This document shows, piece after piece, positions 26,602 to 64,000 of a DNA stretch of 64,000 nucleotides. Position numbers and translations under genes: made by a program. Each line of letters opens with the position of its first letter. The first letter of the stretch is position 1. The notes below the pieces were generated by a model. It was given only the letters and a program-made list of their open reading frames with translations, made no database searches and was not told the origin of the DNA. The stretch is from contig PAZL01000040.1 in assembly GCA_002715485.1 (NCBI GenBank), forward strand, positions 82,507 through 146,506, read 5' to 3'. The DNA comes from Aequorivita sp. (lineage in GTDB: Bacteria; Bacteroidota; Bacteroidia; Flavobacteriales; Flavobacteriaceae).

Positions 26602-27162
26602 TTATTCAAAACTCACTTTCACATTTTCACGGCTTACTTGGTCGGTTTCAAAATAATCAAAGTGCTGATAGTTCAGCATGCCTGCGAAAAGCACTCCGGG
26701 GAAACTTTCGCCATAGGTGTTGTTTTCGCGCACGGTTCCATTATAATATCTTCGGCTGCGCTCTAGGTTCTCCTCTATCTCGTTGAGTTTTTGCTGCAAG
26801 TCCAAAAAATTAGGATTTGCCTTTAAATCTGGATAAGCTTCCCCCAATGCAAAAATACTTCGTAGGGTCTGCTGTAGTTGGTTTTCGGCTTTTATCTGTG
26901 CATTTATATCGTCTGATGGTACTGCCATAGCGGTATTACGTGCCTGAATTACACTTTCCAATGTATTTTTTTCATGAGCCGCATATCCCTTAACGGTTTC
27001 CACAAGATTTGGGATTAGATCATAACGGCGTTTAAGGGCGACATCTATATTACTCCACGCGTCTTTTACCATATTTCTGTTTTTCACAAAACGGTTATAG
27101 ACTATAATGAGCAGGATAGCCACAACGGCAACAATGCCAATAACAAGTAAAATAATATTCAT
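26602..27162 (-). CDS. lemA: LemA family protein
   Basis: YNRFVKNRNMVKDAWSNIDVALKRRYDLIPNLVETVKGYAAHE; YNGTVRENNTYGESFPGVLFA. Confidence 0.95.
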   Translation of the reverse strand: MNIILLVIGIVAVVAILLIIVYNRFVKNRNMVKDAWSNIDVALKRRYDLIPNLVETVKGYAAHEKNTLESVIQARNTAMAVPSDDINAQIKAENQLQQTLRSIFALGEAYPDLKANPNFLDLQQKLNEIEENLERSRRYYNGTVRENNTYGESFPGVLFAGMLNYQHFDYFETDQVSRENVKVSFE

Positions 27163-27224
27163 AATAGCGGTTATTTAAATTGCTTATTGCTTCAAGATGA
27201 AGTATCTAAGATACTATAAAGTTT

Positions 27225-27287
27225 TTGTTAATGGTTAATTGTTGTTCGTTATTTGGAATTTGTCATTTGTTGTTTGTTATTTGTTCT
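27225..27287. repeat. Degenerate heptanucleotide tandem repeat (9 units)
   Basis: TTGTTAA TGGTTAA TTGTTGT TCGTTAT TTGGAAT TTGTCAT TTGTTGT TTGTTAT TTGTTCT. Confidence 0.8.
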
Positions 27288-27290
27288 ACT

Positions 27291-27896
27291 ATGGAATTGT
27301 TCAAGTTTGAAATGGATAGTGAGCGCAATCTTTTGCCGCGGGATGGTATTGTAAATTACTTTGGGAAAATTTTTTCTGAAGAAGAAGCCAACCATTATTA
27401 CAGCATACTTCTTAATACCATTGTCTGGAAAAACGATGAAGCCATCATCTTTGGAAGAAAAATTGTTACCAAACGTAAAGTAGCGTGGTACGGCGAGCGG
27501 GAATTTGAATACACTTATTCCAAGATCACCAAAAAGGCGCATATATGGACGCCGGAACTGCTTCATTTAAAAGAAAGAATTGAGGCCAAAAGCGGTGAAA
27601 GTTTTAATAGTTGCCTATTAAATCTTTACCATAGTGGTGATGAGAGTATGGCGTGGCACAGCGATGCCGAAAAAGACCTGAAAAGGAACGGCGCCATAGC
27701 CTCAGTAAGTTTTGGGGCAGAACGCAAGTTTGCATTTAAGCATAAGAAAACCAAGGAAACCGTTTCCCTATACCTAGAGCACGGCAGCCTATTGATTATG
27801 AAAGGTACTACGCAAACCCACTGGCTGCACCGCCTGCCACCTACAAAAAAAATACAATCGCCGAGGGTCAATCTTACTTTTAGAACGATTGTTTAA
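27291..27896 (+). CDS. alkB: Alpha-ketoglutarate-dependent dioxygenase AlkB
   Basis: YHSGDESMAWHSDAEKDL, GSLLIMKGTTQTHWLHRLP, RVNLTFR; start reassigned to MELFKFEM. Confidence 0.93.
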   Translation: MELFKFEMDSERNLLPRDGIVNYFGKIFSEEEANHYYSILLNTIVWKNDEAIIFGRKIVTKRKVAWYGEREFEYTYSKITKKAHIWTPELLHLKERIEAKSGESFNSCLLNLYHSGDESMAWHSDAEKDLKRNGAIASVSFGAERKFAFKHKKTKETVSLYLEHGSLLIMKGTTQTHWLHRLPPTKKIQSPRVNLTFRTIV

Positions 27897-60825: not shown

Positions 60826-62352
60826 ATGGCAATACTGGGCTCCATTATTAAAACCGCAATTGACCTCCGCGGAGCAATCGTTTCTGAAAAATCTCCCGTA
60901 GAATCGCAACGGGAAGTATTAAAAAATCTACTAGAGAAAGCAAAAGAAACCGCATTTGGAAAATACTATGGTTTTGCCCATATTCTTGAAGCTTCGGAAA
61001 TTGAAAAAGAGTTTGCCAAAAAAGTACCTTATTTTGATTATCATCAAATGGAGGCCGAATGGTGGTGCAAGACACAGGAAGGCATGGAAGATATAAGTTG
61101 GCCAGGAAAGCCCACCTACTTTGCCCGAAGCAGCGGCACCACGGGAAAGACTTCAAAAAGAATCCCGGTTACCGATGAAATGATTGAGGCCATCCGAACC
61201 ACGGGAATAAAGCAGGTTGGCGCGTTGACCAATTTTGAAATCCCATCAGATTTTTATGAAAAGGAAATTATGATGCTGGGCAGTAGTACTAACTTGGAAG
61301 AACACGATCAATTCTTAGAGGGCGAAATAAGCGGCATCAGCGCCAGCAACATTCCGTTTTGGTTTCGAGGCTATTATAAACCGGGTGAGGAAATTGCCCA
61401 AATGGACGACTGGGACCAAAAAGTGGAAACCATTGCAAAAAATGCCCGTAACTGGGACATAGGCGCACTTAGTGGGATACCTTCCTGGATGGAACTGATG
61501 ATGAAAAAGGTAATTGAATACCATAACGCAAAAAATATTCACGAGATCTGGCCCAACCTTCAGGTTTATACCACCGGCGGTGTAGCCTTTCAACCTTATG
61601 AAAAAAGTTTTAATCAACTCTTGGCACACCCCATAACAGTGATTGATACCTATCTTGCTTCGGAAGGATTCTTGGCATTTCAGAATAGACCTGATACAAC
61701 CGCCATGAAATTGGTTGCTGACAATGGAATCTATTTTGAATTTGTTCCCTTCAAACCTGAATATATCAATGAGGACGGATCGCTTTCACAAGATGCCCCT
61801 ACCCTAACCCTTGCCGAAGTGGAACCCAATGTAGACTATGTTTTGATAATCACTACCGTTTCCGGAGCTTGGCGGTATTTAATTGGCGACACAATTGCGT
61901 TTACCGACGTGGAAAAGGCTGAGATAAAAATTACAGGACGCACCAAATTCTTTTTAAATGTAGTGGGTTCACAGCTTTCTGTGAACAAAATGGAGGTTGC
62001 CTTGCGGGAAATGGAGGAGCAATTTGATATAAAAATTCCTGAGTTTACCTTGGCTGCCGTAAAGATAGATGAGGAATTTTTCCACCATTGGTATTTGGGC
62101 ACGGAAACCGAAATCAATGCCGAAGAAATTGCAAACGCTTTGGATGAAGCTTTAAAAGAAGCCAATAAAAACTACGCCGTAGCACGTTCAAAAGCATTAA
62201 AAGGTGTAAAAGTTACAACCATAAACCCTGAAATTTTTCACGAGTGGAACGCCAAAAACAAAAAGAAAGGTGGACAAGTAAAAATGGAAAAGGTTATGGA
62301 TGAGGAAAAATTTGCAGATTGGGAGGATTTTGTGAAGACACAAAGTGAGTAG
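60826..62352 (+). CDS. GH3-like (auxin-responsive promoter family) acyl-adenylate enzyme
   Basis: ARSSGTTGKTSKRIPVTDEMI, YTTGGVAFQPYEKSFNQLL, YRYLIGD-type motif (WRYLIGDTIAF). Confidence 0.9.
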   Translation: MAILGSIIKTAIDLRGAIVSEKSPVESQREVLKNLLEKAKETAFGKYYGFAHILEASEIEKEFAKKVPYFDYHQMEAEWWCKTQEGMEDISWPGKPTYFARSSGTTGKTSKRIPVTDEMIEAIRTTGIKQVGALTNFEIPSDFYEKEIMMLGSSTNLEEHDQFLEGEISGISASNIPFWFRGYYKPGEEIAQMDDWDQKVETIAKNARNWDIGALSGIPSWMELMMKKVIEYHNAKNIHEIWPNLQVYTTGGVAFQPYEKSFNQLLAHPITVIDTYLASEGFLAFQNRPDTTAMKLVADNGIYFEFVPFKPEYINEDGSLSQDAPTLTLAEVEPNVDYVLIITTVSGAWRYLIGDTIAFTDVEKAEIKITGRTKFFLNVVGSQLSVNKMEVALREMEEQFDIKIPEFTLAAVKIDEEFFHHWYLGTETEINAEEIANALDEALKEANKNYAVARSKALKGVKVTTINPEIFHEWNAKNKKKGGQVKMEKVMDEEKFADWEDFVKTQSE

Positions 62353-62356
62353 TGAA

Positions 62357-62391
62357 AAATCACAAATCATAAATTATCAAATCCCAAATTT
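62357..62391. repeat. Degenerate heptanucleotide tandem repeat (5 units)
   Basis: AAATCAC AAATCAT AAATTAT CAAATCC CAAATTT. Confidence 0.65.
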
Positions 62392-62442
62392 CAACTCTAG
62401 CATCCCTGATCGCAGCCGCAGGTAAATTGTGTGTCAATTCCA

Positions 62443-62466: not shown

Positions 62467-63117
62467 CTAACCTTCCTCCCCAACAATCTCAATCTCCTGC
62501 GTTACTTTGTTTTTATTAATAAGTTCCATTACTTCTTCTGGTGAGATATATAATCTGCGAATTCGCTCTTTGTATTTTTCTGAAAGGTTAGCATTATCCA
62601 GGATGAAGTTTTTCGTAGTCAAAATATAATCCCCCATCCCGTGTTGTATGGCATATGTATCTGCCGCACGCTCCACTTCCTTAATGTGCGCAGCAGAAAA
62701 AAGATATTTAATCCCGAAAATGAGCATCCCAAAATTTGTGCGTTCCCTATAATCCATAATATGGCCTAGTTCGTGACCAATCCAACCTACCTTGACATCT
62801 GATGGAATATCTGCCATGGTAAAGTGCTCGCCTTCTATCTGAATGTTTCGGCTGATGAGTATAACGTATTCCCGACGCTCCTTAGGTTTAAAAAAACTGC
62901 TAAAGCGCGGTTGCGCTTGCATGGTAGATTTCTTTATGTCATCCTTAAACTTAAACTCAATGGCAGTATCGTAAAGTTCGGGGTAAAAAGACAATGCCGC
63001 TATCACTTCCCGTTCAATACTCTTGGGGATAATTTTATTATCTAATCTGATATTTTGCGCTGGTAACATATAACAGGCAAAATACAAAATAGGTAAAGTA
63101 AGGTACGTTAAAGGCAT
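62467..63117 (-). CDS. Uncharacterised putative zincin metallopeptidase
   Basis: GWIGHELGHIMDYRER and EVERAADTYAI motifs; hydrophobic N-terminus. Confidence 0.75.
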   Translation of the reverse strand: MPLTYLTLPILYFACYMLPAQNIRLDNKIIPKSIEREVIAALSFYPELYDTAIEFKFKDDIKKSTMQAQPRFSSFFKPKERREYVILISRNIQIEGEHFTMADIPSDVKVGWIGHELGHIMDYRERTNFGMLIFGIKYLFSAAHIKEVERAADTYAIQHGMGDYILTTKNFILDNANLSEKYKERIRRLYISPEEVMELINKNKVTQEIEIVGEEG

Positions 63118-63123
63118 TGTAAA

Positions 63124-63291
63124 GTTATCTGTTTTCAGTTGTGGGTTGTTAGTTGTCGGTTGTCTGTTTTCAGTTGTCGGATGTAAATTGGTTCTTGACT
63201 CTTGGCTCTTGACTCTTGCCTCTTGGCTCTTGGCTCTTGCCTCTTCAAATTTCTCTTTTCGGTTTGCCTATAGCTTACAGCCTAAAGCCAT
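63124..63291. repeat. Long degenerate heptanucleotide array (24 units of 7 nt), includes 7 copies of CTTG(A/G/C)CT
   Basis: GTTATCT GTTTTCA GTTGTGG GTTGTTA GTTGTCG GTTGTCT GTTTTCA GTTGTCG GATGTAA ATTGGTT CTTGACT CTTGGCT CTTGACT CTTGCCT CTTGGCT CTTGGCT CTTGCCT CTTCAAA TTTCTCT TTTCGGT TTGCCTA TAGCTTA CAGCCTA AAGCCAT read in one phase. Confidence 0.88.
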
Positions 63292-63295
63292 AAAA

Positions 63296-64000
<705 letters not shown>

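Follow-up and report, generated by a model that had tools for sequence, protein, structure and literature searches.

The gap between uvrB and the HELGH gene in the window, by which is meant the whole 64,000-nt stretch of Aequorivita sp. DNA that was analyzed, is occupied by an array of degenerate heptanucleotides that grew in place by whole units. It is one of many such arrays, almost all of which lie between genes; they retain their phase while their words diversify, and turn over fast. We consider it probable that this non-coding array grew near-neutrally from a short seed through slippage in 7-nt steps, as an occupant of dispensable spacer DNA that is filtered before start codons.

The array fills a 178-bp gap (63118-63295) from the HELGH gene start codon to the uvrB stop codon. 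Identity at lag 7 across positions 63124-63291 was 0.679, compared to a mean of 0.299 (sd 0.040, maximum 0.455) in 5000 first-order Markov simulations, with lags 14, 21, and 28 likewise high, and this segment was the top lag-7 stretch of the window. Tandem Repeats Finder (TRF) reported the gap as two period-7 arrays together with 21-bp higher-order versions, with consensus units GTTGTCG (6.7 copies) and TTGGCTC (8.3 copies). The first block (63124-63186) consists of nine GTTGTNN-type heptamers, reported by TRF at period 7 over 63138-63184 and at period 21 over 63124-63184. The second (63187-63249; TRF period 7 over 63188-63245) consists of ATTGGTT, an exact run of seven consecutive CTTG(A/G/C)CT units (63194-63242), and CTTCAAA. 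These two blocks are in phase, relative phase 0 giving the best score (0.47 vs 0.38 for the next). The third block (63250-63291, 42 bp) is weakly periodic, with about three AGCYTAN-like units and T-rich sequence, and fits other phases better than that of the first two; none of the three blocks is assigned to a strand. The original prediction of a period-7 array filling this gap, with seven consecutive CTTG(A/G/C)CT copies, was confirmed by a lag-7 signal far above shuffled DNA and by TRF, while its count of 24 units in one phase holds for the first ~18 units and not clearly for the last six. Unit identity declines smoothly with distance, from 0.68 between neighbors to 0.35 at 12 units, and none of 10,000 random orderings of the units gave neighbors as similar, bearing out the claim of a word that drifts under a lasting period. 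The units run head to tail without spacers, unlike the identical ~20-50-nt repeats and unique spacers of a CRISPR, as had been anticipated. An RNA element was rejected: Rfam gave no hit at E ≤ 1, and neither strand folds unusually (z of -1.05 and -1.22).

Both flanking genes lie on the minus strand, so that the array is upstream of the HELGH gene (62467-63117; 216 aa, with an HExxH motif), whose start codon at 63115-63117 adjoins it, and downstream of uvrB, of which the 3' part (63296-64000, stop codon 63296-63298) runs off the window. UvrB was confirmed by Pfam and NCBIfam, and the HELGH protein, which has no family match in either, has relatives in many Flavobacteriaceae; these relatives identify the genus as Aequorivita. 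A second, TTTGTTA-type period-7 array (27224-27285, no strand assigned; from TRF, sequence, and ORFs) sits in the divergent gap 27163-27291, between a minus-strand gene (26602-27162) and a plus-strand ORF with a likely ATG at 27292; similar-word arrays appear to occupy the same gap in genomes G016 and G017 (interval 51098). TRF also found a weak period-7 stretch, again without assigned strand, between a GH3-family gene and the HELGH gene (62343-62394). In several Aequorivita, about a dozen imperfect 21-bp repeats of the CCTCAAAGCCAATATCATTTC type were observed ~3.3-3.8 kb upstream of this gene (L043:3616-3861, L044:374-651, L045:1692-1948, and L059:6562-6860), as were another AT-rich 21-bp array in L040 and L042 and a 22-bp array in L046.

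Comparison of the same gap between relatives carries the case for growth in place. Among congeners with the gene pair, the gap ranges from 23 to 218 bp, and long gaps usually hold arrays of the same period with different words, whereas in Ulvibacter, Marinirhabdus, Cochleicola, Patiriisocius, and two further genera it spans 14-105 bp without clear periodicity. CTTGGCT-type units number 15 in A. lipolytica and about one in Aequorivita CIP111184, and the gap lengths of 153 and 55 differ by exactly 98, or 14 × 7. GGGATTA is present in 0, about 1, 4, 4, and 6 copies among relatives that largely share the start-proximal sequence, and the gap differences between three close species are in phase, at 7n. 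Gain and loss of units in this gap, which had been proposed, is therefore what relatives display, and among them the gap varies greatly and is rich in repeats. That the period is common to relatives while the words differ points to a fixed-length copying step and not to a conserved signal.

Replacement of whole arrays is also seen. UBA3180 carries a wholly different array although the adjoining sequence is ~2% diverged, which is faster than slow drift predicts. Between G016 and G017, all 19 array-bearing intervals are unequal in length and most have different words; the length difference is a multiple of 7 in only 4 of the 19 because most of those gaps were replaced and not stretched. Birth of arrays via isolated 7-bp duplications in unique DNA was rejected, since 7 bp was not one of the frequent length differences that separate these two genomes in such DNA; this result also counts against the slippage account.

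The position of the array against the HELGH start codon allows another reading, in which it is a regulatory element of the downstream gene, acting as a unit-number switch or as a series of protein-binding sites within the leader, for example; repeats ahead of start codons have been interpreted as translational sites (PMC4679880). Strand composition bears on this reading as well. In 31 of 40 arrays of the half-gap beside a gene 5' end, the sense strand was C-rich and G-poor (p = 0.0007; some of these loci are orthologous), while arrays beside gene 3' ends had no significant strand bias. This bias fits purifying selection on leaders, and selection against G-rich leaders accounts for it as well as a regulatory role would. 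Words and lengths vary between species, several relatives have no array at all in this gap, the folding and Rfam results were unremarkable, and arrays are found also in convergent gaps, all of which argue against a regulatory role and make it improbable. In gaps where the skew switches (such as L143:6737-6822, L214:1403-1543, and L230:932-1049), a G-rich part came before a C-rich one in 15 of 16, some loci again being orthologous so that the counts are not fully independent, and the left words resembled the reverse complement of the right words (permutation p = 0.0008). This order with complementary words is not predicted by simple slippage.

The uvrB–HELGH array is real but not singular, as many gaps in the genus are similar. 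At score 20, period-7 tracts (with multiples) occurred at 36-43 per Mb, as sampled from this genome (273 kb) and from two single-contig congeners (400 kb and 360 kb), and we estimate a hundred or more arrays like it in the whole genome. Periods 8 and 11 were also present, less frequently than 7. Period-11 arrays around AAAGCCATAG (L127:1955-2030 and L124:1520-1574) were noted as a second period beside 7 in the window's own genome. At 7 nt, exact tandem dimers between genes far outnumbered the chance expectation (31 vs ~4 and 31 vs ~2), and at 4, 5, and 6 nt they were little above it. A crude ORF caller placed 35 of 40 arrays outside ORFs, and the array at 27224-27285, which it scored as coding, is intergenic once the ATG at 27292 is used. 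A preference for gene orientation was rejected on raw counts, with 22 co-directional, 6 convergent, and 4 divergent array gaps against 338:84:130 for background gaps. The assembly is a draft of 70 contigs, about 90% complete, and three sampled contig ends bear arrays, so an artefact of assembly or a chance periodicity was considered; however, Markov controls gave no tract at score 20, and arrays of the same kind also occur in G016 and G002, each a single contig, and in named isolates, which leaves this explanation scarcely credible. Breakage of the assembly at arrays, hinted at by the three contig ends, was rejected, as none of 20 other contig starts carries one. One 25-kb contig start (L241, G000:C2:1-400) looks GC-rich, unlike the remaining genome, and may be assembly contamination.

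Counted inside arrays, since whole-sequence counts of dimer words were swamped by the A/T-rich background, the words of the Aequorivita samples fell into 86 rotation/complement classes at 74 loci, most of them restricted to a single locus. Phase was nevertheless kept where words changed. For blocks with differing consensus within an array, phase 0 scored highest for 166 of the 225 pairs with 2 differences and for 136 of the 388 with three or more, against an expectation of 1 in 7; such pairs are not independent, and the mean fraction per array was 0.53 over 40 arrays. This retention across changed words indicates that the arrays evolve mostly by gain or loss of whole units and by substitution, and rarely by 1-nt indels.

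Some words are shared between loci, and array pieces might have been copied from gap to gap, whether by gene conversion, by template switching, or because related DNA was taken up, yielding a shared vocabulary and sudden replacement. Unlinked loci of G016 shared words in 27 pairs vs 3.0 expected (0 of 300 composition-matched nulls was as high), which suggests some inter-locus copying, and GGGATTW double units, scattered over many unlinked loci, occurred in 18 of 28 Aequorivita genomes compared to 1 of 31 other relatives. The wholesale replacement in UBA3180 also speaks for spread, and together with the G016 sharing it leaves room for copying between loci. As the origin of the array, however, this is unlikely: the G000, G017, and G002 samples had no excess of sharing, most words are confined to one locus, growth in place is clear at the uvrB–HELGH gap, and the flanks of the replaced array were not raised in divergence.

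For growth in place, the following mechanism is proposed. A strand would slip during DNA copying and re-anneal at a distance of one or a few 7-nt units, whereby the array would gain or lose whole units; point mutations arising between slips would be copied along, so that the word would drift with its phase retained. Arrays would survive where the DNA is dispensable, between genes, and the step length would appear to belong to the copying or repair apparatus of the lineage, not to the word. We infer slippage as the event and an array with no selected role beyond toleration. Mismatch repair would correct 7-nt loops poorly, these being larger than the loops it handles well. Loss of mismatch repair was rejected as a cause, as MutS1 was present in all 40 genomes and dimers of 4-6 nt were near chance. 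Production of the repeats by a reverse transcriptase was likewise rejected, as PF00078 had no match in the array-rich genomes searched, this one included (G000, G010, G016, G017, G020, and G022).

The periodicity extends well beyond the genus. TTG repeated five times at period 7 was found in 207 of 396 genomes of the class Bacteroidia, the highest count being 401 matches; the period-8 form was found in 46 of 149. Over the 149 shared genomes, the summed matches were 1953 at period 7 and 465 at period 8, overlapping matches inside one array being counted many times, and period 8 outnumbered period 7 in 16. In G092, G164, G085, and G158, all of this class and with more matches at period 8, degenerate octamer arrays were seen to drift alike. 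Such arrays are class-wide in Bacteroidia, sporadic, and mostly but not exclusively of period 7. A broader reading, which we put forward tentatively and hold to be rather less probable than its opposite, is that in many Bacteroidia lineages the copying or repair machinery has a sequence-independent, built-in tandem step, 7 nt long in most cases and 8 nt in some genomes, that continually creates, drifts, and replaces intergenic arrays. If this is true, step length is a lineage trait that could map to a polymerase or repair factor.

Aequorivita lends itself to the question of why heptanucleotides are over-represented among bacterial repeats: some of its species are in culture, its arrays are numerous and unrestricted in their words, orthologous gaps reveal how arrays are born and lost, and close relatives are free of arrays. 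Other Bacteroidia that favor period 8 add a contrast, and together these make the question of what sets the step length directly testable. Fast-changing gaps in array-rich genomes should meanwhile not be taken for conserved regulatory signals.

Head-to-tail 7-nt units beyond chance, in whole-unit copy numbers that vary among relatives, place the array among heptanucleotide tandem arrays in the broad sense, and the likeness to degenerate heptanucleotide repeats drawn in the original prediction was borne out. The cyanobacterial STRR (of Calothrix and others) are tandem degenerate 7-nt units between genes that use few characteristic words. The Aequorivita arrays differ from these in phylum and in vocabulary, with 86 classes at 74 loci and moderate sharing in one genome only. 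Phylum, which the prediction had also set between the two, is no barrier, as heptamer arrays are already recorded in this phylum and genus: direct repeats of TAACTGA and companion heptamers (MacGregor 2015), proposed as regulatory in Beggiatoaceae, were reported also in Aequorivita sublithincola, Gramella forsetii, and Elizabethkingia anophelis, and a near relative of A. sublithincola without heptamer arrays was noted (PMC4679880). That system resembles the present one in its intergenic tandem heptamers in Flavobacteriia, several words per gap, and close relatives with shorter, repeat-free gaps; it tracks one fixed word, whereas in the Aequorivita arrays the period and not the word is common to loci and species, and a TAACTGA/TCAGTTA tandem unit is absent from the units of the uvrB–HELGH array. 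As to position, this array adjoins a start codon, and Aequorivita arrays in general also occupy convergent and 3' positions. G-rich GGGAATC and GGGGA(C/T)T repeats in Xanthomonas and Nostoc (PMC4692102) are similar in being intergenic heptamers with strong variation in length and sequence among close relatives, but have one consensus word per genome, as against the 80-plus word classes sampled in Aequorivita. Both papers cite Mrazek 2007 for the 7-nt excess among long simple sequence repeats and for the suggestion that step length has its basis in polymerase contact; as represented there, those surveys count long perfect repeats, while the Aequorivita arrays are degenerate, with drift across several words. 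A literature search, which covered few subscription journals, returned no description of word-independent, phase-keeping period-7 arrays for Aequorivita or Bacteroidia. What was known already is that heptanucleotide repeats occur in bacteria, Aequorivita included; what is new is the word-independent step, the retention of phase, and the fast replacement.
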